From NCBI RefSeq assembly GCF_002151125.1, contig NZ_MDJZ01000016.1:310001-374000 (forward strand): a DNA stretch of 64,000 bases. Reading direction: 5' to 3'. This stretch comes from Clavibacter michiganensis. Its GTDB lineage: Bacteria; Actinomycetota; Actinomycetes; Actinomycetales; Microbacteriaceae. Positions 1 to 64,000 of this stretch are shown piece after piece. The notes below the pieces were generated by a model. That model made no database searches. It saw only the letters and a list, made by a program, of their open reading frames with translations, and was not told the origin of the DNA. A program made the translations under genes and the position numbers. Numbering within the stretch: position 1 is the stretch's first letter; each line of letters starts with the position of its first letter.

Positions 1-659
1 GACGCGGGCTCGACCGCAGCTTCCGCATCGGCCAGATCGGCAGCGCGTCGCTCGTCTCGCTCGCGCACGGCACCAACGACGCGCAGAAGACGATGGGCGT
101 CATCACGCTCGCGCTCATCGCGGCGGGCGGCTGGACCGACACCGAGTCGGTGCCGTTCTGGGTGAAGATCAGCTGCGCGCTCGCCATCTCGCTGGGCACC
201 TACATCGGCGGCTGGCGCATCATCCGCACGGTCGGCAAGGGCCTCGTCGAGATCGACACGCACCAGGGAATGGCGGCGGAGAGCTCGTCGGCCGCGGTCA
301 TCCTCGCGTCCAGCCACCTCGGCTTCGCGCTCTCGACCACGCACGTCGCCACCGGATCCATCCTCGGCTCCGGCGTCGGCCGCCCGGGCGCGCAGGTGCG
401 CTGGCGCGTGGCGCTGCGCATGGTCGTGGCGTGGATCATCACGCTCCCGGCCGCCGCCCTCGTCGGCGCGGTCATGTGGTGGCTCGGCCACCTCGTCGGC
501 GGGGCGGCGGGCGGCATCGCCATGACGCTCGTGCTCGTCGCCGTCGCGATCACCGTGTACGTCCGCTCGCGCAGGGACGATGTGGGCGCGCACAACGTGA
601 ACGACCAGTGGTCCGACGACACGGCCGCCCGCCCCGCCCGCCAGTCCGCCGACGCCTGA
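1..659 (+). CDS. pit: PiT-family inorganic phosphate transporter, 3' part (5' end outside the window)
   Basis: Membrane importer of inorganic phosphate. The reading frame is open from base 3. It contains the PiT signature AHGTNDAQKTMG about 20 residues in, followed by hydrophobic segments. A second repeat half holds SSAAVILASSHLGFALSTTH, the duplicated motif typical of PiT proteins. The tail after the last membrane segment is short, hydrophilic and acidic. An internal ATG at 93 lies inside the signature and is not the true start. Two small genes follow within 11 and 2 bases. The same order (pit, small membrane protein, DUF3349) occurs around mycobacterial pitA (Rv0545c-Rv0543c, from memory), so these are probably companions. 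Family assignment is firm; only the start is missing. Confidence 0.93.
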   Translation, partial: RGLDRSFRIGQIGSASLVSLAHGTNDAQKTMGVITLALIAAGGWTDTESVPFWVKISCALAISLGTYIGGWRIIRTVGKGLVEIDTHQGMAAESSSAAVILASSHLGFALSTTHVATGSILGSGVGRPGAQVRWRVALRMVVAWIITLPAAALVGAVMWWLGHLVGGAAGGIAMTLVLVAVAITVYVRSRRDDVGAHNVNDQWSDDTAARPARQSADA

Positions 660-670
660 AGGATCCCGCC

Positions 671-982
671 ATGCTCCCCCTCTTCCTCTCCGCCGTCGGC
701 CAGGTCGCCGTCGTCGCCCTCGTCCTCGGCGCGGGCCTGCCCGCCCTCTTCGCGCTCGGGGTGCGGTCCTTCGCGCTCGCCAGCCCCGACACGAGCGGCC
801 GCGTCGCCGGATCCGACAGCGTGCGCCGCCTCCCCGCACCCGTCCTCCGGGCGGCCGGCGCGCTCTGCTTCGCGGTCGTGGTGCTCGCGGTGGTCGCGGG
901 CCTCACGCTCATCATCGCGGCGGGCCTCGGCCAGTCGGTGAGCTTCGAGCACGTCATCCCGACCTTCACCTCGAAGGGCTGA
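671..982 (+). CDS. Small two-span membrane protein, pit companion
   Basis: 103 residues. The start is the ATG 11 bases after the pit stop; longer upstream frames merely overlap pit. Hydrophobic spans lie at about residues 4-32 and 62-88, separated by a polar stretch containing SPDTSGRV. No enzymatic motif is visible. It sits between the phosphate transporter and a DUF3349 gene with almost no spacing, so it is probably co-transcribed. The position matches a small membrane protein gene next to mycobacterial pitA. Function unknown; an accessory role in phosphate transport is inference from context only. Confidence 0.75.
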   Translation: MLPLFLSAVGQVAVVALVLGAGLPALFALGVRSFALASPDTSGRVAGSDSVRRLPAPVLRAAGALCFAVVVLAVVAGLTLIIAAGLGQSVSFEHVIPTFTSKG

Positions 983-984
983 CG

Positions 985-1719
985 ATGACCGGCAGCGCAT
1001 CCGCGGGCGGCGAGCCCGGCGACGCCACGTCCCCGGTCGTCCCCGACCACCCCGACCACCCCGACCGCCCCGACCGCCCGGACCGCGGCATCGTCCAGCG
1101 CGTCGTCGGCTGGCTGCGCGCGGGCTACCCGTCCGGAGTCCCGGACCAGGACTACGTGCCGCTGCTCGGGATCCTCCGCCGCAGCCTCACCGCGGAGGAG
1201 CTCGAGCAGGTGGTCGACCAGCTCGTCGACGACGCGATGCGGGCGGACGCGGCGGGCGAGGAGATCGGCCGGAGCCTGCTCCGCGAGCGCGTCGAGCAGC
1301 TGCTCCTCGGCCCCGCGATGCCGGAGGACCTGGTGCGCGTCTCGTCGCGGCTGGCCGCGGCCGGCTGGCCGCTCGGATCCCCCGACGACCTGCACGAGCC
1401 GGACCCCGCCGACGCACGGGAGACCGAGCGCACGGGCCTCGTCTCCCGCATCGTGGCCTGGCTCCGCGCCGGCTATCCCGCCGGGCTCCCCGAGCAGGAC
1501 TTCGTGCCGCTGCTCGCGCTGCTGCGCCGACGCCTCAGCGACGAGGAGGTGCAGGAGGTGAGCGCCCGGCTGGCCTCCGAGGGCGGGCTGCCCGCCAGCC
1601 GGCTCGACGTCGCCGACGCCATCGCGGGCGTCACGTCCGAGATGCCGTCGGACGACGACGTCGAGCGCGTGCGCGCGTACCTCGGGGCGCACGGCTGGCC
1701 CGACGGCTTCCGCATCTAG
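985..1719 (+). CDS. DUF3349 protein with two tandem modules
   Basis: 244 residues. Two copies of the DUF3349 pattern are visible: one starts near residue 37 with RVVGWLRAGYPSGVP and the other near residue 155 with RIVAWLRAGYPAGLP. Each continues into DYVPLL or DFVPLL and LRR, and each closes with a GWPxG-type end (AAAGWPLG and GAHGWPDG). DUF3349 proteins are usually about 100 residues with one module, so this is an internal duplication. The N-terminus is a Pro/Asp-rich repeat (DHPDHPDRPDRPDR). The domain is soluble, helical and of unknown function. It starts two bases after the preceding gene, consistent with one phosphate-transport transcription unit. Confidence 0.8.
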   Translation: MTGSASAGGEPGDATSPVVPDHPDHPDRPDRPDRGIVQRVVGWLRAGYPSGVPDQDYVPLLGILRRSLTAEELEQVVDQLVDDAMRADAAGEEIGRSLLRERVEQLLLGPAMPEDLVRVSSRLAAAGWPLGSPDDLHEPDPADARETERTGLVSRIVAWLRAGYPAGLPEQDFVPLLALLRRRLSDEEVQEVSARLASEGGLPASRLDVADAIAGVTSEMPSDDDVERVRAYLGAHGWPDGFRI

Positions 1720-1771
1720 GGGCGGGGTCGGCCCGCCACGACCCGTCACGGGCGGGGATCCGCCGCCGGGG

Positions 1772-1975
1772 TCATCCGCGCCGTCGGCCGTCCGCGGGTC
1801 GGACGCGGGCCGCCACCACGGCGCTCGCGGCGAACAGGGCGCCGAGCGCGATCGGGATCCACGCCGGGATCGCCGCGTCCGCGCCGAGCGCCCCGGGGAT
1901 GGTCGAGATCAGGCCGGCGCCCGAGGCGACCATGACGACGAGCGCGGCGAGGAACCGTCCCCTCGAGCGCGTCAT
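1772..1975 (-). CDS. Small membrane protein of unknown function
   Basis: 67 residues with two predicted spans (about residues 8-27 and 38-58), a basic N-terminus (TRSRGR) and a basic C-terminus. No family is recognised. The ATG overlaps the stop of a 20-codon upstream reading frame as ATGA, which suggests translational coupling. Convergent with the DUF3349 gene. Confidence 0.5.
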   Translation of the reverse strand: MTRSRGRFLAALVVMVASGAGLISTIPGALGADAAIPAWIPIALGALFAASAVVAARVRPADGRRRG

Positions 1976-2034
1976 CGCGTGACCGCCGTCCCGCGGCCGG
2001 GTGGATCCCGTCGAGCAGGTGCGTCGTGCGTCAT
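1972..2034 (-). CDS. Candidate 20-residue leader peptide coupled to the next gene
   Basis: Reads MTHDAPARRDPPGRGTAVTR and stops with TGA inside the ATGA that starts the small membrane gene. A purine-rich AGGCGAGGA lies just upstream of its ATG. Nothing beyond spacing and overlap supports translation. The same geometry recurs at 16145-16282 and 63597-63665. Confidence 0.3.
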   Translation of the reverse strand: MTHDAPARRDPPGRGTAVTR

Positions 2035-2156
2035 GGTCCTCGCCTTCCCATCGGGGTGACCCGCCCGGATGCCGGGCCGTGCGCCGTCGCCGGGTATGCG
2101 GTCGACCCTCCCCCTGATCGGCGACCGGGTCAACGCCCGCGCCCCCCTACCGCGTG

Positions 2157-4555
<2,399 letters not shown>

Positions 4556-4615
4556 CCCGCGAGCCCCGCCGGCGCGGGATCCGTTGACACGGCGGTCCCC
4601 GGCTGATCGGATCGA

Positions 4616-4655
4616 GGGAGGGCCGCCGTCTCCTCGCGGAGGCGGCGGCCCTCCC
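4616..4655. terminator. Long GC stem-loop after the efflux operon
   Basis: GGGAGGGCCGCCG pairs perfectly with CGGCGGCCCTCCC around an inner CTCC/GGAG stem and a TCGC loop. No T-tract follows. It lies between the MFS stop and the next gene, so it is a candidate terminator. Confidence 0.65.
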
Positions 4656-4709
4656 GCATCCGGCGCCGCCGCCGCGGGTCCCGCCCGTCCCGCATCATCG
4701 GAGGTCGCC

Positions 4710-5153
4710 GTGAGCGAGCCCATCGTCCTCGTCCGCACGTTCGCGGCGTCCCGGGAGCGCGTGTTCGACGCATGGATCACGCCGGCCGACCTCTCCGCCT
4801 GGTTCGGCGGCGCGGAGGTCGAGGTGCCGCTCGACACCCTGCGCATGGACGTGCGCGTCCGCGGCGCGTGGAGCGCCGTGATGCGCCTGCCCGACGGCGG
4901 ATCCATCGACTGGGCGGGGGAGTACGTCGAGCTCGACCGGCCGTCGCGCCTGGCGATGACCATGACCGACCGACCCGACGAGCCCGCGGGCGAGCCGCTC
5001 ACGGTCGACCTCGAGGAGGTCGCCGGCGGCGCGACGCGGATGACCGTGACGCAGACGGCGGGGGAGTTCACCGACGAGCAGCGCGCGATGACGATCCAGG
5101 GCTGGGGCGCGTTCCTCGACGTGATGGAGGGGCTGGTCGCGCCGAGCGCGTGA
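4710..5153 (+). CDS. AHSA1/SRPBCC-type START-like protein
   Basis: 147 residues. The start chosen is GTG 4710, preceded by GGAGGT with 4-base spacing. A longer frame from 4584 would run through the terminator hairpin and encode a low-complexity leader. Family features are the first strand IVLVRTFAASRERVFDAWI, the helix motif PADLSAWFGG, and the C-terminal helix GWGAFLDVMEGL. The fold is a hydrophobic-cavity domain (Aha1 / CalC / SRPBCC group) that binds small hydrophobic ligands. Some members work with ArsR regulators, but none is adjacent. Specific role unknown. Confidence 0.85.
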   Translation: MSEPIVLVRTFAASRERVFDAWITPADLSAWFGGAEVEVPLDTLRMDVRVRGAWSAVMRLPDGGSIDWAGEYVELDRPSRLAMTMTDRPDEPAGEPLTVDLEEVAGGATRMTVTQTAGEFTDEQRAMTIQGWGAFLDVMEGLVAPSA

Positions 5154-5192
5154 CGCGCCCCGGTCGGGCTGCGCGCGTCGGTCCCGCGGGAG

Positions 5193-6845
5193 TCAGTCGC
5201 GCCGCGGGCGCCGGACCACGCCGACCGCGGTGATCCCCGCCGCGCCGAGCGCGAACGCGAGGACCGCGAGGAACGGCAGCTCGTCGGCGGACATGCCGGT
5301 GGCAGCGAGGGTGTCGCCGCGGGCGGACGAGGCGTCGGCCGCGGCGAGCTCCGCGGGCGATCCCGGGACGGTCGAGCCGGCCGCGCTGAAGCCGGGCGCG
5401 CCGGGCGCGGGCGCCCCCGGATCCAGCGCGGCGGATCCCGTGAGGCAGCGGCGCACCTCGGCGACGTCGTAGAAGGGGGATCCCGGCGCGATGGGCGTGC
5501 AGCCCGCGCGGAACGGGATCGCCTGCTCGTCGTAGAGCATGCGCACGATGGCCCGGCCGCCGGTGTCGCGGAAGACGTCCCACTGCACGTTCGCGGCCAT
5601 CGGCGTGACCGTCTCGCCGCGCCACTCGTTCGTCCCGTACGCGTACGGGGCCTCGGGCGTGACCTGCTGCGTCGAGCCGGGCAGGCCGATCAGCGCCGCG
5701 AACGGGATGATCGTCTCCGCGTGCGCGAAGCGGAAGGTCGCGGCGGTGGAGGATCCGGCGAGCCGCGCGTCCATCGAGTCGAGGAAGTCGTCGAGCAGCG
5801 GCCGCGCCATCCGGTAGGTGATGTCGCTGCCCTGGAACGCCGGGCCCTTCGAGTAGAAGTCCTCGGCGTCGAGCAGGTAGGCGAACCACTCGGCGTCAGC
5901 GCCCTCGAGGTACCGGTCGAAGTCGACCCGGACCTCCTCCGTCATGTCGGGGGCGATGATGTACAGGTTGTAGAGCATCATCGCCGCGTCGACCTCGTCG
6001 TCGACCGTGGTCTTCCCGTCACCGCCGTCGACGAAGCGGTACGCCCCCGCGGCGAGGCGGTCCACGAACGCCGGGGAGTAGAGGCGCTCGAGCAGGTGGC
6101 GCGCGGCCTGGTGGCTGCGGGGCTGGTCGGTGATCGCGTCGACCGCGGCCGTCACGGCGGGGCCGTCCTCGTACGCCTGGTAGTCGGCGTTCGCGTCCGA
6201 CTTGTGGAAGTAGAGCGTGCCGGGGTCCTTCGCGATGTCCGCCGGCAGGTGCGAGGCGAGCAGCGGATCCGCCGTCCTCAGCCCCTCGGCGAACGCCTTC
6301 CCCGAGGCGGTGGCGCGCGCCTCGCCGGAGCTCTCGAGCGCGACCCGGTCGGATCCCGCGTCGACGTCGGCGAACAGCGACGGCAGCCGCTCCACGGCGC
6401 GCGCGCCGATGCCGCGGTGCTGGTCGGCGCCCTGCCCGGTGAGGTTGCCGTAGCCGAGCCGCTGGTTCGCGGCGGTGAGCTCCGCCACCTCCGGGCCGAG
6501 CGTCTCGCCGAGCGACGTGAGCGCGCCCTCGGAGCGGGCCTGCTCCCACACCTGCGTGGTGAGGGAGTCGTACTTGAAGCTCGACAGGGCGCGCGATCCG
6601 TGGCGCGCGACCGACTCCGTGTACACGGGCGCGAAGCCGGCGGGCGCGGGCGCGAGATCGGCCGCGGTGCCGCGCGGGGCGTACGGGGTCTTGCTGCTGT
6701 AGTACGGGCGGTCGGCGGCGTCGGTGCCGGTCGCGCTTCCGGTTCCGGTCGCCGCGTGCGCCGGGAGGGCGGATCCCCCGGCGGCGATCCCGAGGGCCAG
6801 CGCGAGCGCGACGGAGGCGGACAGGCGGCGGGTGCGGAGGCGCAT
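5193..6845 (-). CDS. Secreted histidine phosphatase, MINPP/phytase-like, with LAATG sortase signal
   Basis: 550 residues. The signal peptide (residues 1-32) ends at AHA. The catalytic loop RHGSR is at 81-85. The proton-donor motif is HAE at 375-377 instead of the HD of classical acid phosphatases. HAE is characteristic of multiple inositol polyphosphate phosphatases, suggesting phytate or inositol phosphate hydrolysis outside the cell. The C-terminus has LAATG (513-517), a ~17-residue hydrophobic span and RRPRRD, a complete cell-wall sorting signal of the LAxTG (sortase E) type. ATG 6845 is preceded by AGGAA. A long upstream in-frame extension lacks a signal and is rejected. No sortase gene lies in the window. 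Substrate is inference. Confidence 0.88.
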   Translation of the reverse strand: MRLRTRRLSASVALALALGIAAGGSALPAHAATGTGSATGTDAADRPYYSSKTPYAPRGTAADLAPAPAGFAPVYTESVARHGSRALSSFKYDSLTTQVWEQARSEGALTSLGETLGPEVAELTAANQRLGYGNLTGQGADQHRGIGARAVERLPSLFADVDAGSDRVALESSGEARATASGKAFAEGLRTADPLLASHLPADIAKDPGTLYFHKSDANADYQAYEDGPAVTAAVDAITDQPRSHQAARHLLERLYSPAFVDRLAAGAYRFVDGGDGKTTVDDEVDAAMMLYNLYIIAPDMTEEVRVDFDRYLEGADAEWFAYLLDAEDFYSKGPAFQGSDITYRMARPLLDDFLDSMDARLAGSSTAATFRFAHAETIIPFAALIGLPGSTQQVTPEAPYAYGTNEWRGETVTPMAANVQWDVFRDTGGRAIVRMLYDEQAIPFRAGCTPIAPGSPFYDVAEVRRCLTGSAALDPGAPAPGAPGFSAAGSTVPGSPAELAAADASSARGDTLAATGMSADELPFLAVLAFALGAAGITAVGVVRRPRRD

Positions 6846-7071
6846 GGGTTCCTGGCGGAGCGGGCGCGGCGCGGGATGCGCGCGGCGGGTGCGGGTGGGT
6901 CGCGGATGCGACGCGGCCGACGCTAGGCGGATCGCATGACGCAGCGGTGTCCCGGCGTTGAACGGGTGGGGCAGCGGTCGCCCGCCGTCTGCGCGGCGTC
7001 TGCCCGCCGTCCCCGCGTCGGGCGGCTCCCCGCCGCCCGTAGGGTGGGAGGACGCGCGCGAGGGGAGTCGG

Positions 7072-8001
7072 ATGATCGGGGTGCTGACCGGCTTCGCCAT
7101 CATCGGCTTCATCATCGCCGTGGGCTACGGCGTCGGCCGCTCCGGGATCGCCGGGCCGGGCGCCCAGCACTCGCTCAACCGGGTCGCGTTCTTCGTCGCG
7201 ACGCCCGCGCTCCTGTTCACCGTGCTCGCGAAGGCCGACCTGGACGTCGTGTTCTCGGCGTTCCTGCTGGCGTCGGCGTCCGCGGTGGCCGTCGCGGCGA
7301 TCCTCTATCTGATCGTGGCGCGCGTGCTGTTCCGGCGGCCGGTGGCGGAGACGACCATCGGCGCGGCGTCCGCGAGCTACGTGAACGCCAACAACATCGG
7401 CCTGCCCGTCGCGATCTACGTGCTCGGCGACGCGCAGCTCGTCGCGCCCGTGCTGCTGCTCCAGCTGCTCGTGCTGGCGCCGACGACGCTGACGATCCTC
7501 GACATCTCCAGCCGCGGCTCCGCCTCGGTGGTCGGGATCCTCACGCAGCCGCTGCGGAACCCGATGATCATCGCGTCGATGCTCGGCATCCTCATCGCGG
7601 TGACGGGGCTGCAGGTGCCCGACGCCGTCTACGAGCCGTTCCGGCTGATCGGCGGCGCGGCGATCCCCATCGTGCTGATGGCGTTCGGCATGTCGCTCGT
7701 GGGGCGGAAGCCGCTCGCGCCGGGATCCGGCCGCGGCGAGATCATCGTGGCCTCCGTCATCAAGACGGTGATCATGCCGCTCGCCGCGTTCCTGCTCGCG
7801 CGGTTCGCCTTCCACCTGGACGCCGACCAGACCTTCGCCGCGACCGTGATCGCCGGCCTGCCGACCGCGCAGAACATCTTCAACTTCGCGTCGCGCTACG
7901 AACGCGGCGTGGTGCTCGCGCGCGACACGGTGCTGATCACGACGGTCGCGTCGATCCCGGTGCTGCTGGTGATCGCGGCGCTGCTGGCTCCCGGGACCTA
8001 G
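7072..8001 (+). CDS. AEC-family (auxin efflux carrier type) transporter
   Basis: 309 residues, about ten membrane spans. The start is ATG 7072 with AGGGGAG upstream. The family signature NANNIGLPVA lies in the first half (about residue 104). The second half repeats the theme with PTAQNIFNFA. AEC proteins export or import small organic acids such as malate; no substrate can be read here. TAGGGT at 7040-7045 is a probable -10 box, giving a short leader. The stop codon lies in the loop of the terminator hairpin. Confidence 0.88.
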   Translation: MIGVLTGFAIIGFIIAVGYGVGRSGIAGPGAQHSLNRVAFFVATPALLFTVLAKADLDVVFSAFLLASASAVAVAAILYLIVARVLFRRPVAETTIGAASASYVNANNIGLPVAIYVLGDAQLVAPVLLLQLLVLAPTTLTILDISSRGSASVVGILTQPLRNPMIIASMLGILIAVTGLQVPDAVYEPFRLIGGAAIPIVLMAFGMSLVGRKPLAPGSGRGEIIVASVIKTVIMPLAAFLLARFAFHLDADQTFAATVIAGLPTAQNIFNFASRYERGVVLARDTVLITTVASIPVLLVIAALLAPGT

Positions 8002-8017
8002 CGTCCCGGGAGCCAGC
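7983..8017. terminator. Bidirectional 15-bp perfect hairpin
   Basis: GCTGGCTCCCGGGAC and GTCCCGGGAGCCAGC flank a 5-base loop (ctagc) that contains the AEC stop. It serves the convergent AEC and 51-residue genes. No T-tract. It is followed by two direct copies of GCGGCGGGACCTA (8018-8043). Confidence 0.75.
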
Positions 8018-8038
8018 GGCGGGACCTAGCGGCGGGAC

Positions 8039-8194
8039 CTAGCGGCGCCCGGCGGCCCCGCGCTGAGCGGCGCGCTTCTGCGAGCGCTTGGCCATCTGGG
8101 CCTTGCCCTTGGCCATGGCGGCCTTGCCCTGGCGGCTGCGCAGGAAGCGGCGGATGACGGGGACGGCGATGAACAGGAAGCGGATCAGCGGCAT
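8039..8194 (-). CDS. Small basic protein, 51 residues
   Basis: Starts MPLIRFLFIAVPVIRRFLRS. A hydrophobic N-terminal half (residues 1-18) is followed by a strongly basic tail with KAAMAKGKAQMAKR and ending RRAAQ-type residues. GAGGAG lies seven bases before the ATG. Net charge is very high, without acidic residues. It could be a membrane-bound nucleic-acid-binding peptide, but there is no recognised family. The coding character (good RBS, GC-ending codons) makes it likely real. Its stop lies in the direct repeat downstream of the shared terminator. Confidence 0.55.
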   Translation of the reverse strand: MPLIRFLFIAVPVIRRFLRSRQGKAAMAKGKAQMAKRSQKRAAQRGAAGRR

Positions 8195-8335
8195 GGTGGT
8201 GCTCCTCGGGGGATCTGCGCGGATCGGTGGACCCCCGCCCTTCGACCCTGCCAGGTCCGGGCGCGCGCGACCGGGTCCGCGGCGGATGCGGCGGGGAACG
8301 GCCAGGCGCGGCGCGGCGGGAGGGGGCGGACCGGG

Positions 8336-9292: not shown

Positions 9293-9329
9293 GGTCGTCG
9301 AGCCTAGGGGTGCGGCGCGGCCGGCTCGG

Positions 9330-9335
9330 TAGGGT
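9330..9335 (+). promoter_or_regulatory. -10 box TAGGGT, leaderless start
   Basis: Seven bases separate this hexamer from ATG 9343, so transcription should begin at the start codon. Confidence 0.55.
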
Positions 9336-9342
9336 GGCCGCG

Positions 9343-9870: not shown

Positions 9871-9908
9871 CCGCGAGCGGCCGAGGGCCGGTGCGGCAGG
9901 AGGTGCGC

Positions 9909-30992: not shown

Positions 30993-32009
30993 TCAGCCGG
31001 CGGTCGGCGGCACGGGGACGCCCGGCTCGGGATCCGGCGACGCGAACACGGTGCCGCCGCCCGCGAGCCGGGCGCGCATCACCTCCAGGGCCTGCGGGTT
31101 CTCGTCCACCAATACGAAGCGGCGGCCGAGCTCGCGGGCCGCGGCGCCCGTGGTGCCGGATCCGGCGAAGAAGTCGAGCACCCAGTCGCCCGGCCCGCTC
31201 GACGCCTGCACGATGCGACGCAGCACGCCGAGCGGCTTCTGGGTCGCGTAGCCGGTCTTCTCGCGGCCCGTAGGGGAGACGATCGTGTGCCACCAGACGT
31301 CCGTCGGCAGCTTGCCGCGCTCGCGCTTCTCCGGGGTCACGAGGCCGGGCGCCATGTACGGCTCGCGGTCGACGCCCTCCGAGTCGAAGCGGTAGCGGAG
31401 CGGGTCCTTCACGTAGACGAGGATCGTGTCGTGCTTGGCCGGCCAGCGGCGGCGGGACTTCGCGCCGTAGTCGTACGCCCACACGATCTCGTTGAGGAAC
31501 GAGCGGCGGCCGAAGAGCGCGTCGAGCACGACCTTCGCGTAGTGCACCTCGCGGTAGTCGAGGTGCAGGTAGAGGGTCCCGGTCGGGTGGAGGAGACGCC
31601 ACGCCTCGATGAGCCGCGGCTCGAGGAAGTCCCAGTAGTCGGCGAACGAGTCGTCGAAGCCGTAGAGCATGCCCTTCACGGAGTCGTAGCTGCGGCCGTG
31701 GAAGCCGAGGCGCGCACCCGGCGGGCGGACCGGCTCGGGCGTCGCGGTGCTCGCGGGGGCGAGGGCGGGGGCAGCGGTCGCGGGGTCGGCGGCGGCGGTG
31801 TCGTCGGCGGCGCCGGCTTCGGGATCCGGGTCCGGGTCGGCGCTGCGCCTGACCGTGAGGTTCTGCCGCTCCTGCGTGCGGCCGGTGTTGAACGGCGGAT
31901 CCAGGTAGATGAGCTGGAAGGCGCCGTCGGGGAGGGCGCGCACGGCCTCGAGGTTCTCCGCGTGGATCACGAGGTCGGGGCCGTCGGGGGTCCACGCGGG
32001 CAGGGGCAC
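30993..32009 (-). CDS. Orphan beta-class DNA methyltransferase (N6-adenine or N4-cytosine)
   Basis: 338 residues, GTG start six bases after TAACCT (minus 32016-32021). Catalytic motif IV is DPPF at 37-40 (LIYLDPPFNTG); the AdoMet motif DFFAGSGTTG comes near the C-terminus (~279-288), the order of beta-class enzymes such as CcrM and HinfI methylase. The region between has target-recognition features (YGFDDSFADYWDF, YDYGAKSRRRWP, DVWWHTIV), and a ~45-residue Pro/Ala/Asp-rich insert follows motif IV. No restriction endonuclease is nearby, so it may act in regulation or replication timing. Recognition site unknown. Confidence 0.9.
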   Translation of the reverse strand: MPLPAWTPDGPDLVIHAENLEAVRALPDGAFQLIYLDPPFNTGRTQERQNLTVRRSADPDPDPEAGAADDTAAADPATAAPALAPASTATPEPVRPPGARLGFHGRSYDSVKGMLYGFDDSFADYWDFLEPRLIEAWRLLHPTGTLYLHLDYREVHYAKVVLDALFGRRSFLNEIVWAYDYGAKSRRRWPAKHDTILVYVKDPLRYRFDSEGVDREPYMAPGLVTPEKRERGKLPTDVWWHTIVSPTGREKTGYATQKPLGVLRRIVQASSGPGDWVLDFFAGSGTTGAAARELGRRFVLVDENPQALEVMRARLAGGGTVFASPDPEPGVPVPPTAG

Positions 32010-32080
32010 GCCCCGAGGTTAACGGAAGGCCCGAGGGGCGCCGGTCGCGCCCGGCCGCGGTCGTCGCGCGCTCCGGCTCG

Positions 32081-54012: not shown

Positions 54013-54018
54013 GCAGGC

Positions 54019-56346: not shown

Positions 56347-56477
56347 GTCCGTTCCTCTCCCCTCGGTCGCCGGGTCGGGTGCCCGGCGGGCGCGCTCGTG
56401 CGTCCCCTCCCGACCCTGGCCCGGTCGCGCGTCGGCGTCCGGGGGCTTGACGCCCGGCCGCCTCCGACCCGCTTCGT

Positions 56478-56483
56478 TAGAGT
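56478..56483 (+). promoter_or_regulatory. -10 box TAGAGT of serS
   Basis: Six bases before GTG 56490. Confidence 0.55.
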
Positions 56484-56489
56484 GACGGG

Positions 56490-57770
56490 GTGATCGATCC
56501 GCAGACCCTCCGCGACCATCCCGACCTCGTCATCGCCTCGCAGGAGCTGCGGGGTGCGTCCGTGGAGGTGGTCGACCAGGCGGTCGCCGCCGACTCCGAG
56601 CGCCGCCGGGCGATCACCGAGTTCGAGGGCCTGCGCGCCGAGCAGAACGCGCACGGCAAGCTCGTCGCGAAGGCGGACAAGGCCGACAAGCCGCGCCTCA
56701 TCGCCGAGGTGCAGGAGCTGAAGGCCCGCGTCACCGCCGCGCAGGAGCGCGCGCAGGAGGCCGAGGCCGCGCTCGACGAGGCCATGCGCCGGATCCCGAA
56801 CATCGTCGTCGACGGCGTCCCCGCGGGCGGCGAGGACGACTGGGCGCTCATCCGCGAGGTCGGCGAGAAGCCGACGTTCGACTTCGAGCCCCGCGACCAC
56901 CTCGAGATCGGCGAGATCCTCGACGCCATCGACATGGGCCGCGGCGCCAAGGTGTCCGGCGCCCGCTTCCACTTCCTCAAGGGGATCGGCGCGCAGCTCG
57001 AGATCGCGCTCATGAACTTCGGCCTGGCCCGTGCGCTCGAGGCCGGCCTCGTGCCGCTCATCACGCCCACGCTCGTGAAGCCCGAGATCATGGCCGGCAC
57101 CGGCTTCCTCGGGGCCCACGCCGACGAGGTCTACCGCCTCGACGACGACGACCTCTACCTCACGGGCACGAGCGAGGTGGCGCTCGCCGGGTACCACGCC
57201 GACGAGATCCTCGACCTGGCCGACGGCCCCGTCCGCTACGCCGGCTGGTCCACCTGCTATCGCAAGGAGGCGGGCTCCTACGGCAAGGACACCCGCGGCA
57301 TCATCCGCGTGCACCAGTTCCAGAAGCTCGAGATGTTCTCCTACGTCGACCCCGCCGACGCGGAGGCCGAGCACGAGCGCCTCCTCGCCATGCAGGAGCG
57401 CATGATGCAGGACCTCGGCCTCTCCTACCGCGTCATCGACACGGCGGCGGGCGACCTCGGATCCAGCGCCGCCCGCAAGTACGACGTCGAGGCGTGGATC
57501 CCCACCCAGGACGCCTACCGCGAGCTCACCTCCACCTCGAACTGCACGACGTTCCAGGCCCGCCGCCTCGGCACGCGCTTCCGCGGCGAGGACGGCCGCA
57601 CCTCGCCCGTCGCGACGCTCAACGGCACGCTCGCCACCACGCGGTGGATCGTCGCCATCCTCGAGACCCACCAGCAGGAGGACGGCTCGGTGCGCGTGCC
57701 CGAGGCGCTGCGCCCCTACCTCGGCGGCCTCGAGACGCTGACGCCCGCCACGGCGAAGGCCGCCCGATGA
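56490..57770 (+). CDS. serS: Seryl-tRNA synthetase
   Basis: 426 residues, GTG start. N-terminal coiled-coil arm (~25-105) that binds tRNA-Ser. Class II motifs: motif 1 around [16 protein letters not shown], motif 2 [34 protein letters not shown], Ser-binding [11 protein letters not shown], motif 3 [16 protein letters not shown]. Complete. Overlaps the HAD gene as ATGA. Two tRNA-Ser genes lie 2-4 kb downstream. Confidence 0.97.
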
Positions 57771-58588
57771 CCCCGCGCGTGACCGACGCCGACCGCCTCC
57801 TCATCGCCCTCGACATCGACGGCACCCTCCTCGGCGAGGACGGCTCGCTCGACGAGTCCGTCATCCGCGAGGTGCGGCGGATGGAGGAGATCGGCCACCT
57901 GGTCATGCCCTCCACCGGCCGCTCGGTGGCCGACACCCTGCCGATCGTCGACCGCCTGGGCATCCACCCGCGGTACATGGTGTGCTCGAACGGCGCCATC
58001 GTCCTCGAGCGCGACGCGGACGCCCCCACCGGGTACAGCCGCCGCTTCGTCGAGACCTTCGACCCGGCCGACGTGCTGCAGAGGATCCGCCCGCACCTCG
58101 CGAGCGGCCGCTACGCCGTCGAGGACGAGGAGGGCGTGTACCTCTGCTCCGGTGGCGACTTCCCCGCGGGCGTGCTCGAGGCCAACGGCCGCCACGTCGA
58201 GTTCGAGGAGCTCCTGCACGTGCCCGCGACGCGCGTCGTCGTCATCTCGCCCGGCCACGACCTGGAGGACTTCCAGGACGTCGTCGAGCGCATGGGCCTG
58301 CACCGCGTGAGCTACTCCATCGGCTGGACGGCCTGGCTCGACATCGCGCCCGACGGCGTGAACAAGGCCACCGCGATGGAGCGCGTGCGCGAGCTGCACG
58401 GGATCCCCCGCACGCGCGTCATCGCCATGGGCGACGGCCGCAACGACATCGAGATGCTGGAGTGGGCCGGCGAGCACGGCCGCGGCATCGCGATGGGCCA
58501 GGCGCCCGCCGAGGTCATCGCGGTCGCCAGCGAGGTCACGGGTCCCATCACCGAGAACGGCGCGGCCGCGGTCCTCGCCCGCCTCTGA
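57767..58588 (+). CDS. Cof-type HAD-IIB phosphatase
   Basis: 273 residues. ATG overlaps the serS stop. Motif [19 protein letters not shown], motif II PSTGRSV, motif [15 protein letters not shown] and [17 protein letters not shown]. Removes phosphate from sugar phosphates, FMN or similar. Co-translated with seryl-tRNA synthetase; functional link unclear. Confidence 0.93.
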
Positions 58589-58607
58589 CGCGCGCGAGGA
58601 TGGAGGC

Positions 58608-59672
58608 ATGACCCGTACCGGCCCCTCCGCGATCACCGCCCGCTACGCCGTCGTCGACGGCGACCGCTCCCTCGCCTTCCACGAGGAGGAGGTGGGGGAG
58701 CCCGCGCCCGACCAGGTCGTCGTCCGGATCCGCTACACCGGCGTGTGCGCCACCGACACCCACGCGTGGGCCGCGGCCGGCTTCGTCCCCGCCGCCGTGT
58801 TCGGGCACGAGTGGACCGGCACGGTCGTCCGCGCGGGCGCCGACGTGACCTCGGTCGCCGAGGGCGACCGCGTGGTCGCCGGCGTGGGCCCCGCCTGCGG
58901 CACCTGCGCCATGTGCCGCGCCGGCCACGGCGACACCTGCGACACGGCCTTCGCGGAGGCCAACGGGATCTCCGACGGCGCGCCCGCCCACGGCGCCTTC
59001 GCCACGCACGTCAGGGTCTCGGCGCGCCGCGTCGTGCGTGCCCTCGACGGCCTCACGGACGAGCAGCTCGGCCTCGTCGAGCCGACCGCCGTGACCTTCC
59101 ACGCCGTCCGGCGCGCGGGCCAGGGCCTGGGCGACGTCGTCGTCGTGCAGGGCGCCGGGCCGATCGGGCTCCTCACCGCGCAGCACGCGCGCCACGCGGG
59201 CGCGGGCGTCGTCGTGGTCGTCGAGCCGTCCGACGCGCGCCGCCGGGCCGCGACGGAGCTCGGCTTCGCCGAGGTCCACGAGCCCGGGCAGGGGTTCCGC
59301 GACCGGCTCCTCGAGCTGACCGACGGCCTCGGCGCCGACGTGCTCTACGAGTGCACGGGCGCCGCCGCCCTTCTCCAGCCGAGCGCCGAGCTGGTCAGGC
59401 GCGGCGGCACGCTCGCGCTCCTCGGCTACCCGATGGCCGCGTCCGAGGTGTCGTACGGCGACTGGCAGAGCCGCGAGCTCACGGTCGTCGGATCCCTCGC
59501 GTACACGCACGGCGACTTCCTCGGCGCGATGCGCGCCCTCGCCGACGGCTCCGTCGACGTGGTGCCGCTCGTGACGGGGATCCTCTCCCTCGACGAGCTG
59601 CCGGCCCTCCTCGCCGAGCTCGACGGGGGCAGCACGCGGCACGCCAAGGCCCTCATCGAGCCCGGTCGCTGA
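58608..59672 (+). CDS. Zinc-binding MDR alcohol/sugar dehydrogenase
   Basis: 354 residues. ATG six bases after GAGGAT (58596-58601). Catalytic zinc: TGVCATDTHAW with Cys, and GHEWTG with His-Glu. Structural zinc: CGTCAMCRAGHGDTC, three or four Cys. NAD motif VVQGAGPIGLLTAQHA. Similar to threonine/sorbitol dehydrogenases. Substrate unknown. Confidence 0.92.
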   Translation: MTRTGPSAITARYAVVDGDRSLAFHEEEVGEPAPDQVVVRIRYTGVCATDTHAWAAAGFVPAAVFGHEWTGTVVRAGADVTSVAEGDRVVAGVGPACGTCAMCRAGHGDTCDTAFAEANGISDGAPAHGAFATHVRVSARRVVRALDGLTDEQLGLVEPTAVTFHAVRRAGQGLGDVVVVQGAGPIGLLTAQHARHAGAGVVVVVEPSDARRRAATELGFAEVHEPGQGFRDRLLELTDGLGADVLYECTGAAALLQPSAELVRRGGTLALLGYPMAASEVSYGDWQSRELTVVGSLAYTHGDFLGAMRALADGSVDVVPLVTGILSLDELPALLAELDGGSTRHAKALIEPGR

Positions 59673-59868
59673 CACCGCGGGCTGCCCGCCTCTGACGCGC
59701 GGCGGCGACCGATTCCCCACCTGGGGAGAGTTCAGCCCGCTCTGATCCCCCGCGTGCGAGAGTGGCGCCTCCCGCGCGGTCACCCGGCCGCACCACCGCG
59801 GGCCGACCGGCCACCGGTAGGATCCTGATCGATCGCACGTCGCCCGCCACGCGGGAGCGCGCGCATCG

Positions 59869-59953
59869 GGAGGGCTGTCCGAGCGGCCGATGGAGCCAGT
59901 CTTGAAAACTGGTGGGCAGAGATGTCTCGTGGGTTCGAATCCCACGCCCTCCG
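59869..59953 (+). tRNA. tRNA-Ser (UGA)
   Basis: Acceptor GGAGGGC/GCCCTCC, discriminator G. Anticodon stem CCAGT/ACTGG with loop CTTGAAA, anticodon TGA at 59903-59905. Long variable arm typical of Ser, T-loop TTCGAAT. CCA is not encoded. TAGGAT at 59818-59823 may be its -10. Confidence 0.97.
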
Positions 59954-59969
59954 CCCGGAGAGGATCCGC

Positions 59970-61232
59970 ATGAGCGACGCGCCCCTGCGCCCCCGAGGAG
60001 CCGCGAAGGTCCCCGTCATCGCCCGCCACGGTCGGCTGCGCAAGGCGACGGCGACCCGGGCCCTGCTGAAGGGCACCGCGATGGCGCTCGCCGTGCTGGC
60101 GGTCAGCGGCTTCTCCGTCGTCACCATCGCCGCGTGGGACCTCAACAGGTCCGTCCAGGCGAACACCGTCGACATCAGCGACGGCACCGAGCAGACCACG
60201 GTCGGAGTCGGCGCGCTCGACGGCGGCTTCAACGTGCTGCTCGCCGGATCCGACACCCGCCAGGGGCAGGGTGACGGCTACGGCAAGACCGACGGCGCGC
60301 TCAACGACGTGAACATGGTGCTGCACGTCTCGGCCGACCACTCGCAGGCCACCGTCGTCAGCCTGCCGCGCGACATGGTCGTGCCCATCCCCGCCTGCGA
60401 GCGCAGCGACGGATCCGGCACCGCACCGGCCATGTCCGCGGCGCCGCTCAACTCGGCGCTCTCCGACGGCGGCCTGCCGTGCGTCGCGAAGACCGTGGCG
60501 CAGTTCACCGGCCTCGACATCCCGTACGCCGCGCTCATCGAGTTCAACGGCGTCATCGAGATGTCCAACGCCGTGGGCGGCGTGCCCGTGTGCCTCGCGA
60601 GCCCGCTCAAGGACAAGCGCACCGACCTCGACCTCCCGGCCGGCGAGAACACGCTGCAGGGCAAGGAGGCGCTCCAGTTCCTCCGCACGCGCCACGCGGT
60701 CGGCGACGGCAGCGACCTGGCCCGCATCAGCAACCAGCAGGTGTTCCTGTCGGCGCTCGTGCGCACCATGAAGCAGTCGAGCACGCTCTCGGATCCCACG
60801 CGCGTCTACGGCCTCGCGAAGGCCGCGGTCGACAACATGCAGCGCTCCACGTCGCTCGACTACCAGACCATGGCCTCCATGGCGCTGGCGCTGAAGGACA
60901 TCCCGCTCGACCAGGTGCGGTTCCTGCAGTACCCCGGCACGACGGCGGGCACCGGCGTCTACGCCGGCAAGGTCCAGCCGCTGAAGGCCGACGGCGACCA
61001 GCTCATGCAGCTGCTGAAGGCCGACGCCCCGTTCGAGGTCAAGGCGGGCAACACGGGTCTCGGCGCGGTGGCGGAGCAGCCGGCTGCGCCGACCCCGGCC
61101 CCGTCGGCATCGCCCAGCGCCCCCGCGGCGGACGGCGGATCCCAGCCGGCGCCCTCGGCGCCCACGGTGCTTCCCGAGGCGATCACGGGCACGGACGCGG
61201 GCACGGTCACGTGCTCGAAGGCGTTCGGGTGA
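59970..61232 (+). CDS. LytR-CpsA-Psr (LCP) family cell-envelope protein
   Basis: 420 residues from ATG 59970, with GGAGAGG upstream; an in-frame ATG at 59922 lies inside the tRNA. One membrane span near 33-55 (ALLKGTAMALAVLAVSGFSVV). LCP domain ~80-330: NVLLAGSDTR, ADHSQATVVSLPRDMVVPIP, PLNSAL and LQFLRTRHAVGDGSDLARISNQQVF. These Arg/Asp residues bind polyprenyl-phosphate substrates. It attaches teichoic-type polymers, arabinogalactan or capsule to peptidoglycan. The C-terminus is a Pro/Ala/Ser-rich tail. It sits between two tRNA-Ser genes. Confidence 0.93.
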   Translation: MSDAPLRPRGAAKVPVIARHGRLRKATATRALLKGTAMALAVLAVSGFSVVTIAAWDLNRSVQANTVDISDGTEQTTVGVGALDGGFNVLLAGSDTRQGQGDGYGKTDGALNDVNMVLHVSADHSQATVVSLPRDMVVPIPACERSDGSGTAPAMSAAPLNSALSDGGLPCVAKTVAQFTGLDIPYAALIEFNGVIEMSNAVGGVPVCLASPLKDKRTDLDLPAGENTLQGKEALQFLRTRHAVGDGSDLARISNQQVFLSALVRTMKQSSTLSDPTRVYGLAKAAVDNMQRSTSLDYQTMASMALALKDIPLDQVRFLQYPGTTAGTGVYAGKVQPLKADGDQLMQLLKADAPFEVKAGNTGLGAVAEQPAAPTPAPSASPSAPAADGGSQPAPSAPTVLPEAITGTDAGTVTCSKAFG

Positions 61233-61612
61233 TGCGCGGCACCGGATCCCGATGAGGGCGACGGGACCCCGCCGCACACCCTATGCAGCGGGGACCCGTC
61301 TATCTCGTTCAGCTTTCGACCCGAATCCTCCGCCGGACGAGAATCTCGTGTTCTCGCCCACGGGGGGCTCGCGACGTCGTCGCGTGCGTGAGGGTGAGCG
61401 GCGCCGGTTCGGGGGATCCGGGGCCGCGGCCACGTGGGCGAGCGGGACATCTCTGGGCTGACACAGCGACACGCGCGGGGTAAGCCGGTCGGGTCCGGCA
61501 CACGCGTCGACACCGACACTACGTGTCCGTCGAATGGGGGACAACCGCGCCGCACCCCCCGTTCGGGCGCGTACCCCGGTGGGCGGGGATGTGAGCATGC
61601 CGCCGCGTCCGG
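61233..61612. other. Gene-free region between the LCP gene and tRNA-Ser
   Basis: No gene or known RNA recognised. It is AT-richer around 61300-61360. The last part leads into the tRNA promoter. Confidence 0.4.
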
Positions 61613-61618
61613 TACAGT
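61613..61618 (+). promoter_or_regulatory. -10 box TACAGT of the second tRNA-Ser
   Basis: Lies 14 bases before the mature 5' end; no clear -35. Confidence 0.45.
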
Positions 61619-61632
61619 GGACGGGAACGTCT

Positions 61633-61724
61633 GGAGACGTCGCATAGTTCGGCCTAGTGCACCACCCTGCTAAGGTGGAGTACCCGTATGGGTACCGTGG
61701 GTTCAAATCCCACCGTCTCCGCCA
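61633..61724 (+). tRNA. tRNA-Ser (GCU), CCA encoded
   Basis: Acceptor GGAGACG/CGTCTCC, discriminator G, CCA at 61722-61724. Anticodon stem CCACC/GGTGG with loop CTGCTAA, anticodon GCT at 61669-61671. Long variable arm (GAGTACCCGTATGGGTACC region) and T-loop TTCAAAT. Confidence 0.97.
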
Positions 61725-61803
61725 TCTCCTCCCGGTCCGTCACCGGTCCCCGCGCTCGCCGGCCATGGCCCAGGTGGGCGTCCCGGACCGATACGCTCCT
61801 CGG

Positions 61804-62349
61804 ATGGATCGCCAGATGCTCGACCAGCTGTCGACGGGCCGTTCTCGGCGCGACGTGCAGGCCATCCGCGACACGCTCTCCGCGCTGTCGCCCGGGGGCG
61901 TGGTGAGCGTCGTCATCCGCTCGCCGCGCTACGGGCTGTACGCCGTAGACGGCGCGGTGCGGACGGGCGCGAACGGCCAGCTGTCGGTCGCGGACACCTC
62001 GCTCAGCGCCGCGGGCGAGATCCAGGGCCTCGCTCCGAGGGCCGCGGACGAGGGAGCGACCCCGACGGAGCTGCCCTCCTCGGTGGCGGGCCTCGCCCAT
62101 GGCGTCGCGGTGCGCGTGACGTTCGACGAGCCCGCCTACGGCCCGTTCCACGTCACGGGTCCGCTCACCGCGGGCGACGACGCGTTCCTGCTGGTCGGCA
62201 ACTGGATCGTCGTCGACGGCGACCGGTTCGCCCCGCGGGTCGTCGGCGTCGAGGTCGCCGACGATCTCGAGGTCCATCCCGCCAACGTCCCTCCGAAGCG
62301 GCCGTCGGCCGAGGACCCGGGCGCGCCGGTGCCCGGGCTCGCCGCCTAG
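61804..62349 (+). CDS. Hypothetical protein of Microbacteriaceae type
   Basis: 181 residues. ATG 61804 is six bases after TACGCT (61792-61797); a longer frame would start inside the tRNA. N-terminus MDRQMLDQLSTGRSRRDVQAI. Central beta-rich part with VVSVVIRSPRYGLYAVDGAV and PAYGPFHVTGPLTAGDDAFLLVG, ending in a Pro-rich tail. No recognised domain, no signal or span. Function unknown. Confidence 0.65.
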   Translation: MDRQMLDQLSTGRSRRDVQAIRDTLSALSPGGVVSVVIRSPRYGLYAVDGAVRTGANGQLSVADTSLSAAGEIQGLAPRAADEGATPTELPSSVAGLAHGVAVRVTFDEPAYGPFHVTGPLTAGDDAFLLVGNWIVVDGDRFAPRVVGVEVADDLEVHPANVPPKRPSAEDPGAPVPGLAA

Positions 62350-62413
62350 CTCCGCGAGGGCCGCGAGGGCCGGGGCGTCGTCGCCGGGCTCGACCCGGCC
62401 TAGCATCACCCCC

Positions 62414-63490
62414 ATGAGCGACACGTTTCCCGACGCGCCACGGCCGCCGGATCCCGACCACGGCTCGGGCACCACGCTCGGCCTCATCGCGCGCGAGGCG
62501 AACGTGTCGATCGGCACGGTCAGCAAGGTCCTCAACGGCCGCAAGGGCATCTCGCCCGCCACCCGCGCGCGCGTCGAGGAGCTGATGGAGCTCCACGGCT
62601 ACAGCCGTCGCGGGGCCGAGCGGCCGCACGGCGCGCTGCTGGAGATCGTGCTCGAGGTCGTCGACACGGGCTTCTCCGTCGACCTGCTGCGCGGGGTGTC
62701 GGCCGTCGCGCGCGAGCACGCGCTGAGCGTCATCGTCACGGAGCACGGGCGCGACACCGCGCTCGACGGCGACTGGATGGCGGGCGTCATGCAGCGCCGG
62801 CCCATGGGCCTCGTCCTCGTCTTCTCCGACCTCGCGCCCGCGCAGAAGCGGCAGCTGCGCAGCCGCGGCATCCCGTTCGTGGTGGTGGATCCCGCGGGGT
62901 CGCCCGCCGCGGACGTGCCCGCCGTCGGATCCACCAACTGGGAGGGCGGCCACGCCGCGGGGGAGCACCTGCTGGGGCTCGGGCACACCCGCATCGGCGC
63001 GATCAGCGGCCCGCCGCACCGCCTCTACTCGCGCGCCCGCATGTCCGGGTTCCGCAGCGCGCTCGAGGCGGCGGGACCCGCGGTCTCGCTCGTCGAGGTC
63101 GAGGGCGACTTCGGCCGCACCGCCGGGTACCGCGCGGGCGGCGAGCTGCTCGACGCCGCCGAGCGCCCGACCGCGATCTTCGCCGGCAACGACGAGCAGG
63201 CGCTCGGGCTGTACGAGGCGGCGCGCGAGCGGGGGATCCGCATCCCCGACGACCTGTCCGTGCTCGGCTACGACGACCTCCCCTTCGCCCGCATCGTCTC
63301 GCCCGCGCTGAGCACGGTGCGCCAGCCGGTGCGCGAGATGGCGGAGGCGGCGGCGCGCATGGTGCTCAGGATCCGCGAGGGGCGCAGCGACGAGCCCACG
63401 CGCCTCGACCTCGCGACGGCGCTCGTGGTGCGCGCCAGCACCGCGCCGCCCGCCGACGCGGCGACGGGCACCGTGTCGTCGGCCGAGTGA
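62414..63490 (+). CDS. LacI/GalR-family transcriptional regulator
   Basis: 358 residues. ATG seven bases after TAGCAT (62401-62406). HTH with hinge: GLIAREANVSIGTVSKVLNG, then RVEELMELHGYSRRG. Periplasmic-binding-like effector domain ~62-345 (VGSTNWEGGHAAGEHLLGLGHTRIGAISGP, IFAGNDEQALGLYEAA, LSVLGYDDLPFARIVSPALSTVRQP). A perfect GAAACGTTTC operator overlaps its stop, and a 9/10 match lies just after its own start, so it likely controls itself and the downstream ThuA gene. A sugar effector is expected. Confidence 0.94.
   Translation: MSDTFPDAPRPPDPDHGSGTTLGLIAREANVSIGTVSKVLNGRKGISPATRARVEELMELHGYSRRGAERPHGALLEIVLEVVDTGFSVDLLRGVSAVAREHALSVIVTEHGRDTALDGDWMAGVMQRRPMGLVLVFSDLAPAQKRQLRSRGIPFVVVDPAGSPAADVPAVGSTNWEGGHAAGEHLLGLGHTRIGAISGPPHRLYSRARMSGFRSALEAAGPAVSLVEVEGDFGRTAGYRAGGELLDAAERPTAIFAGNDEQALGLYEAARERGIRIPDDLSVLGYDDLPFARIVSPALSTVRQPVREMAEAAARMVLRIREGRSDEPTRLDLATALVVRASTAPPADAATGTVSSAE
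62420..62429 (+). promoter_or_regulatory. LacI autoregulatory half-operator (9/10 match)
   Basis: GACACGTTTC, six bases after the regulator's ATG; one mismatch to the palindrome at 63489. Confidence 0.4.
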
Positions 63491-63498
63491 AACGTTTC
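63489..63498. promoter_or_regulatory. LacI-type operator GAAACGTTTC
   Basis: Perfect 10-base palindrome with the central CG step typical of LacI-family sites. It overlaps the lacI stop and lies 18 bases upstream of the next promoter's -35. Confidence 0.7.
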
Positions 63499-63516
63499 GG
63501 ATCGCGCGCACCCTGC

Positions 63517-63546
63517 TTGCCCCGGCCGACCGGCGGTGCGTAGCGT
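63517..63546 (+). promoter_or_regulatory. Promoter TTGCCC - 18 - TAGCGT for the thuA unit
   Basis: One of the few clear -35/-10 pairs in the window. It gives a leader of about 45 bases to GTG 63597. Confidence 0.55.
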
Positions 63547-63596
63547 TCGACGCGTGCCCGGCGGTCGTCCGGGCGCTCCCGACGAAGGAGTCGCAC

Positions 63597-63665
63597 GTGA
63601 CGCAGATCCCCCGCACGCCCGCCCGCCCGCACCGCGGTCGCCCGACCGGGACGGCGCTCGCGTGA
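63597..63665 (+). CDS. Candidate 22-residue leader peptide before thuA
   Basis: GTG with GAAGGAG six bases upstream, reading MTQIPRTPARPHRGRPTGTA-LA. Its TGA overlaps the GTG of thuA (GTGA). Good ribosome site but no coding evidence beyond that. Confidence 0.4.
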   Translation: MTQIPRTPARPHRGRPTGTALA

Positions 63666-64000
63666 CCGCCGCCCGCCAGGCCCTCGTAGTCCGCGGCGGC
63701 TGGGACGGCCACATGCCCGTCGAGACCACGGGCCTGTTCATCCCGTTCCTCGAGGAGAACGGCTTCGAGGTCCGGGTCGAGGACGGTTCGGCCGTCTACG
63801 CCGACGCCGACGTCATGGCCGCGACCGACCTCATCGTGCAGGCCAACACCATGACGACCATCGAGCCGGAGGAGATGGCAGGCCTCCGCGCGGCCGTCAT
63901 CGCCGGCACCGGCATGGCCGGCTGGCACGGCGGCATCGCCGACTCGTACCGGAACACGGCCGACTACCTGCACATGATCGGCGGCCAGTTCGCCCACCAC
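63662..64000 (+). CDS. ThuA-domain protein, 5' part (cut by the window end)
   Basis: First 113 residues of a glutamine-amidotransferase-like ThuA domain: ALVVRGGWDGHMPVETTGLF, NGFEVRVEDGSAVY, LIVQANTMTTIEPEEMAGL and GTGMAGWHGGIADSYRN. The WHGG motif is the family marker. GTG overlaps a 22-codon frame. ThuA proteins act in trehalose/disaccharide or glycoside conversion (3-keto-sugar metabolism). Control by the adjacent LacI regulator is probable. Confidence 0.85.
   Translation, partial: MTAARQALVVRGGWDGHMPVETTGLFIPFLEENGFEVRVEDGSAVYADADVMAATDLIVQANTMTTIEPEEMAGLRAAVIAGTGMAGWHGGIADSYRNTADYLHMIGGQFAHH

Follow-up and report, generated by a model that had tools for sequence, protein, structure and literature searches.

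The closest described counterpart of the pattern reported here is the highly iterated palindrome HIP1 (GCGATCGC) of cyanobacteria, which, like the alternate HIPs of these organisms, has been tied to methyltransferases, which occurs at a density of about one per 1000, and for which methyl-directed repair has been proposed as a cause (Elhai 2015, PMC4390886). Here, we analyze the hexamer GGATCC in a stretch of 64,000 bases from Clavibacter michiganensis (contig NZ_MDJZ01000016.1 of assembly GCF_002151125.1, positions 310,001 to 374,000; hereafter, the window) and in the genome and genus to which it belongs. Like HIP1 as described in that paper, GGATCC is a G+C-rich palindrome of very high copy number that is present across a clade and sporadically elsewhere, and its one-off neighbors lie mainly at the first or last base. 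It differs in phylum and in word, in density (one per 493 bp compared with about one per 1000), and in having no universal cognate methyltransferase in the four families searched. HIP1 itself is not over-represented in the window (8 copies versus 6.7 expected under a third-order Markov model). The original prediction, made from the letters of the window, had recognized in GGATCC the pattern of the cyanobacterial word, and this holds as an analogy: the palindrome is genome-wide, extends over every frame and over non-coding DNA, and overrides codons.

A sequence-specific process can inflate a single word at the expense of its one-off neighbors, as does the Dcm/Vsr very-short-patch repair of E. 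coli. GGATCC may resemble that case in this respect and differs from it in that G034, a species of similar enrichment, has neither Vsr nor the C5 methyltransferase. To our knowledge, the cause of HIP1 is still open, and we know of no description of short-range interference for it. GGATCC is a second, very strong HIP-like example, in another phylum. Among the papers listed on HIPs, on over-represented words, and on Clavibacter with GGATCC or methylome, no title or abstract opening reports GGATCC in Clavibacter. The main text of Elhai 2015 (PMC4390886) contains neither GGATCC nor Clavibacter, and the word methylation is absent from the Pontimonas paper. Both terms, Clavibacter and GGATCC, occur in one of the listed papers, PMC6873887, whose title concerns Bacillus velezensis.

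Over-Representation of GGATCC in the Window and the Genome

The sites under study are as follows.

1..64000, no strand: 170 GGATCC sites (counts), scattered over coding and non-coding DNA

Base composition predicts 20.1 of these 170 copies and a third-order Markov model predicts 82.9, with a z-score for GGATCC that is the highest among all hexamers. A maximal-order model expects 129.5, but it draws on GGATC and GATCC, themselves inflated by GGATCC. The sister words are fewer (GGATCG, 57; CGATCC, 51; CGATCG, 49). An estimate of about 28 copies in the first 10 kb against about 3 predicted, and the remark that GGATCG and CGATCC are much rarer, had been made by eye; the count is exactly 28 against 3.1 from composition, and the over-representation is real and larger than had been claimed.

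Across the whole genome (G000; 3,024,150 bases in 18 contigs), GGATCC occurs 6,129 times, or once per 493 bp. In a 457-kb sample of this genome (15%, window included), which is the basis of the null models, reading phases, codon contexts, and intergenic ratios given below, it ranked first among 1,584 ranked hexamer classes, and 60-kb samples from two further species of the genus likewise put it first. Spacing was near random (coefficient of variation, 0.99), with no regularity seen and no preference for gene starts or gene ends. A single DNA word that overrides codon preference at ∼6,100 copies matters for codon-usage and substitution models in the genus.

Codon Choice and Non-Coding DNA

We compared the counts with nulls that respect genes. 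When synonymous codons were shuffled within pools of 15 genes, keeping proteins and codon usage, 141 copies of GGATCC were expected and 773 were observed (331 genes; 115,949 codons); with a second gene caller, the figures were 167 and 899 (5.38-fold). A shuffle that also kept the following base expected 207 (3.7-fold), and one that kept both flanking bases of every codon expected 295 (2.6-fold), with GGATCC still ranked first in each. The original prediction had named two outcomes that would speak against it, a dicodon-aware null that reproduces the count and an equal enrichment of GATC-centered hexamers; the junction-aware shuffles left the excess standing, and CGATCG, AGATCT, and TGATCA came to 0.89, 0.86, and 0.98. 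All three frames are enriched, in agreement with the earlier observation of the word in every reading phase: GGA TCC was found 291 times (19 expected), xGG ATC C 244 times (104 expected), and G GAT CC 238 times (20 expected).

The codons that GGATCC had been said to force are indeed strongly avoided except inside it. Aspartate in the context G-GAY-CC is encoded by GAT in 266 of 331 cases and in other contexts in 299 of 8,747 (80% versus 3.4%), and glycine before TCC is encoded by GGA in 337 of 449 cases and elsewhere in 425 of 12,115 (75% versus 3.5%). Where a silent change reaches it, GGATCC thus overrides codon preference ∼80- to 115-fold in odds. In the related species G155 (G-numbers denote the genomes sampled for comparison), the same two contexts were filled with GGATCC in 149 of 225 and 248 of 376 cases. 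The lowest-GC genes were less filled (0.50 versus 0.72–0.80), which would follow if acquired DNA conforms only gradually.

Outside genes the word is no less dense, with 3.08 copies per kb between called genes and 2.23 within them in G000. The non-coding ratio of GGATCC to GGACCC plus GGGTCC was 1.69 in G000 and 1.25 in G155; the same type of ratio for control palindromes was 0.17 and 0.21 for CGATCG and 0.18 and 0.37 for GCATGC. Since enrichment extends to all frames and to non-coding DNA, the effect acts on DNA and not on translation. Words one base away from GGATCC stood at 1.02–1.68 in G000 when the change was at an outer position and at 0.23–0.77 when it was at an inner one, except GGATGC (1.32) and GGTTCC (1.11). 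GGGTCC and GGACCC are also low in the non-enriched G057 (0.47 and 0.63), and the outer-position pattern taken alone is weak evidence.

Three candidate causes were rejected. Avoidance of the neighbor GGACC fails because GAC remains at 80% (101 of 126) in G-GAY-CG, which also makes GGACC. A drive at the level of amino acids is too small to claim, as Asp-Pro pairs (1.25, or 1.14 when reversed) and Gly-Ser pairs (1.22, or 1.10 when reversed) are raised only slightly in G000. Codon or dicodon bias is ruled out by the three nulls and by the non-coding enrichment. That a genome of 73–74% G+C would reach this excess through its usual bias in composition, codons, or codon pairs is hardly credible: part of the raw excess is compositional, as the third-order Markov expectation of 83 rather than 20 shows, but the codon-shuffled and junction-aware nulls, the avoidance of GAT and GGA outside GGATCC, and the enrichment in non-coding DNA all speak against it, as do genera of similar G+C content without enrichment (for example, G045 at 0.736 and G026 at 0.716, both 1.0-fold).

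As side observations, GCATCC and GGATGC were 2.5- to 3.6-fold over-represented by the codon null in G057 and G126, a second and different favored word, and several genera had a mild excess of CGATCG, TCGCGA, TGCGCA, or GTCGAC by the same null. Minor palindrome preferences may be common in Microbacteriaceae, Micrococcaceae, and relatives.

Taxonomic Spread

All 18 genomes of the genus carry between 3,964 and 6,455 copies of GGATCC, and the remaining 147 of 150 genomes drawn from the family carry between 84 and 3,772. Among 296 genomes drawn from the phylum, the genome of the window was the densest, at 2,027 copies per Mb, with the next at ∼900 (genome sizes rounded). By the codon null, enrichment was 3.8- to 6.8-fold in 16 of 16 further species of the genus (one of them on 8 kb only).

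Enrichment outside the genus is patchy. Among 71 named loci of 15–21 kb from other Microbacteriaceae, Micrococcaceae, and relatives (9 of the 80 named loci, 15 kb or shorter, were left out), the sole outlier by the codon null was Frondihabitans sp. Leaf304 (18 versus 7.0 expected); with five further stretches (one of 1.2 kb left out), it had 99 copies versus 24 (4.06-fold). The codon test outside the genus covered 10 genomes of the family. G126 was moderately enriched (2.1-fold), whereas G057 of the same genus was depleted (0.58-fold). G014, G047, and G087 were weakly raised (1.7- to 2.6-fold) and are discounted because CGATCG is raised there too. Other values were 1.6-fold for G098, 1.0-fold for G045 and G026, and 0.5-fold for G003. 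G087, which carries the same genus label as the ∼4-fold enriched Leaf304, is thus only weakly raised.

High copy number and conservation throughout the genus would also suit a DNA uptake word for natural transformation, of the DUS/USS kind (DNA uptake sequence or uptake signal sequence). Uptake words are longer (9–12 bases) and are not palindromic, whereas GGATCC is a palindrome of six bases, and we regard this explanation as very improbable. In two Clavibacter phages, GGATCC was counted 15 times versus 8.8 expected (z = 2.5) and 6 times versus 4.0, indicating enrichment that is weak at most and no avoidance. Separately, CGATCG was found 0 times in the called genes of the first 40 kb of phage CN1A, versus 19.4 expected; restriction of CGATCG by the host may be the reason for this avoidance.

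Gain and Loss of Sites Across Species

The alignment covered ∼39–52 kb of the window in 14 other species of the genus and 31 kb in one more; star-alignment blocks were masked if local identity to the window was below 75% or if they held too few bases. G163 (9.7 kb only, of which 6.6 kb aligned) was left out of the species comparisons, and the fragmented G152 was not included. In pairwise comparisons of species, GGATCC was identical 76.4% of the time, versus 64.8% for the average hexamer, which places it at rank 104 of 609; many words under other constraints are more conserved between species pairs.

Rates of change were estimated with a simple two-state model, in which no ancestral states are inferred, at aspartate codons with fixed flanks in 16 present-day species (70 GGATCC-context positions; unit, mean divergence). 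The C-to-T rate inside GGATCC was 0.40 (95% bootstrap interval, 0.22–0.81), compared with 0.018, 0.049, and 0.098 in three control context classes, and the T-to-C rate was 0.14 (0.08–0.21), compared with 0.84, 0.92, and 3.4; in the bootstrap, 38 of 200 draws had no finite estimate for the C-GAY-CG control class. Within this model, gain of GGATCC is raised and loss is lowered at synonymous aspartate positions. Such a double shift points to selection or to biased fixation or conversion and not to mutation favored in one direction: a hot spot for C-to-T alone would not change the loss rate, and protection of existing sites alone would not change the gain rate. By arithmetic from the two-state rates, the shift in odds is ∼50–140, corresponding to a scaled strength of ∼4–5.

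The explanation that we tentatively favor, as a plausible rather than a probable one, is that GGATCC is a HIP-like word whose high density is maintained by a force recognizing the hexamer as double-stranded DNA, namely, selection for occupancy. An abundant, sequence-specific, probably homodimeric DNA-binding protein would use the sites, each DNA neighborhood would profit from having one, and weak selection, with a scaled strength of ∼4–5 per site, would fill most positions reachable by one silent change. Biased repair or conversion is a close rival and, although we think it somewhat less apt to be correct, a real possibility: a sequence-specific endonuclease or mismatch-repair factor would correct near-miss mismatches to GGATCC, and the word would accumulate without being of any use. 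Very-short-patch repair and the repair model that Elhai put forward for HIP1 are comparable processes, and both substitution rates are shifted toward GGATCC, as biased repair would have it.

Short-Range Interference Between Sites

The two explanations part where sites lie close together. With two species pooled, synonymous sites were filled at 0.58–0.61 if another GGATCC lay within 60 bp and at 0.76–0.79 if the nearest was 61–800 bp away. Near another GGATCC, 100 of 160 sites were filled in G000 and 51 of 94 in G155, versus overall values of 0.77 and 0.66 (pooled z = −5.1). No drop was seen near unfilled one-off words or other palindromes, where filling was 0.74–0.83 in G000 and 0.60–0.67 in G155. 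When filled states were shuffled within genes, pairs at 6–60 bp were fewer than expected in G000 (73 versus 84.2, z = −3.2) and in G155 (32 versus 37.3, z = −2.3), with no deficit in either at 61–240 bp. When each site was compared with itself among species, the odds ratio of filling in the presence of a GGATCC no more than 60 bp away was 0.29 (z = −3.0; 23 informative sites). The advantage of GGATCC therefore drops, by a modest amount, if another copy lies within ∼60 bp. Memoryless point repair does not predict such interference.

At larger distances, filling was roughly flat from 61 to 800 bp, which speaks against a density requirement on the kilobase scale, and lower beyond (39 of 76 sites filled when more than 800 bp from any GGATCC). 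The lower filling of these isolated sites and of the lowest-GC genes would fit DNA of recent acquisition that is still to conform.

Several results weigh against selection for occupancy. Under strict alignment filters, 12 sites were left in the comparison across species, with an odds ratio of 0.30 (z = −2.05), and control word sets gave odds ratios of 1.02, 2.09, and 2.95 (z = +2.2 for the third); since the species rows are not independent and a control reached +2.2 in the opposite direction, a z of ∼2 can arise by relatedness. Interference is modest where present and was not seen in the other enriched lineages, G126 (11 pairs versus 9.0 expected, the opposite direction) and Leaf304 (3 versus 3.6). 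Given flat filling from 61 to 800 bp and near-random spacing, no longer-range requirement is visible. Some members of the genus are less filled, with only 25 of 47 and 22 of 45 cases in the two codon contexts of G154. The kinetics are just as compatible with biased repair or gene conversion, and both rates are ∼2–4 times above the simplest one-parameter selection model when set against two of the control classes, although the third class fits. Finally, no protein was identified in the families searched.

Biased repair gains from some of the same observations, as most reachable sites are filled without a visible larger-scale requirement. It also agrees with the patchy spread expected of a transferable factor (Leaf304 and G126 enriched; G057, a congener of G126, depleted) and with Clavibacter phages that are weakly enriched at most, which would suit slow action on resident DNA. 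The interference within 60 bp stands against it, as does the absence of known enzymes of this kind despite enrichment (Vsr and the C5 methyltransferase from G034; DUF559 present in 1 of 17 genomes of the genus searched). We favor selection for occupancy, with biased repair close behind.

Filling also varied among species, being lowest in G154 (0.54) and G161 (0.62) and between 0.69 and 0.82 in the other 14. Midpoint rooting places G154 by itself at the root of the tree and G161 in a clade with G150, G162, and G164.

Search for the Responsible Factor

The original prediction had further held that some protein may read, methylate, or repair GGATCC. A reader is likely, but none was found in the families searched. 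Vsr (PF03852) and the C5 methyltransferase (PF00145) are both present in G000 and both absent from G034 (three genomes of the genus searched; PF00145 was searched in 15 genomes in all). Of the 18 genomes of the genus, 2 have the D12 methyltransferase PF02086, and 11, not including G000, have PF02384 (N6_Mtase); DUF559 occurs in 1 of 17 searched, which is G000, beside the Vsr match. This distribution rules out Vsr and the C5, D12, N6_Mtase, and DUF559 families as universal drivers. In Vsr, DUF559, and the four methyltransferase families, no gene is common to all searched genomes of the genus except one PF01555 gene in the window, and PF01555 is universal in the genus only as that gene. In G000, the C5 methyltransferase and Vsr genes lie close together (contig C3, 19600–22844; locus L131), a locus that is not in G034 and is possibly a restriction-modification locus.

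A GGATCC-specific methyltransferase of another class, or the window enzyme after all, might drive or use the sites. Cognate methyltransferases have been reported for HIP1 and the alternate HIPs (Elhai 2015, PMC4390886), but the distributions above and, for the window gene, its strong presence in family members without enrichment and its tie to TTAA make this explanation unlikely.

Enriched genomes have close relatives with less or no enrichment (G126 and G057; Leaf304 and G087), and with no obvious methyltransferase at hand, a comparison of gene content can therefore seek the actor. It is conceivable, if on balance doubtful, that silent positions throughout the genus have been remodeled by a transferable GGATCC reader that lacks a cognate methyltransferase, and separately in Leaf304 and at least one other lineage, with the genus tending to at most one site per ∼60 bp. 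If so, this would be a HIP-like genome code in Actinobacteria.

The Window Methyltransferase and TTAA

Two features of the window bear on the methyltransferase question.

30993..32009, minus strand: orphan beta-class N6/N4 DNA methyltransferase (Pfam PF01555, 149 bits)
32019..32022, no strand: TTAA, the sole one of the window, inside GTTAAC, just upstream of the methyltransferase start

The best match of the methyltransferase among solved structures, by sequence, is RsrI. The gene is present in 18 of 18 genomes of the genus and was matched in 146 of 150 genomes of the family at E ≤ 0.001 (135 at E ≤ 1.7e-96), most of the strong matches being in genomes without GGATCC enrichment. The original prediction had mentioned this gene while granting that nothing linked it to GGATCC; as it is strong in non-enriched family members and tied to TTAA, we judge it unlikely to be the driver, and a candidate reader would probably be a different protein. 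Searches of phage proteins with the methyltransferase gave only matches below 60% identity.

In Arthrobacter, a conserved orphan methyltransferase is reported to target TTAA (Blow et al. 2016, PMC4752239). The window gene, likewise a conserved orphan across its clade and with TTAA just upstream, is a likely relative; nothing ties it to GGATCC. It probably belongs to the same enzyme family, and TTAA is its predicted target. The 64-kb window holds one TTAA versus 0.1 expected. A dnaA motif was not found in the six loci searched for it.

The position of TTAA recurs. It lies at −13/−14 of the methyltransferase start in 16 of 16 other loci of the genus examined. Outside the genus, 23 of 86 loci have a TTAA within 150 bp upstream, a count made by hand that excludes the window locus (L039), two repeats of genus loci (L040 and L041), and the 16 genus loci, and in which some loci may share one genome. 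Taken over all 105 methyltransferase loci, 42 have an upstream TTAA versus 3.6 expected, which suggests that the putative TTAA methyltransferase possibly regulates itself.

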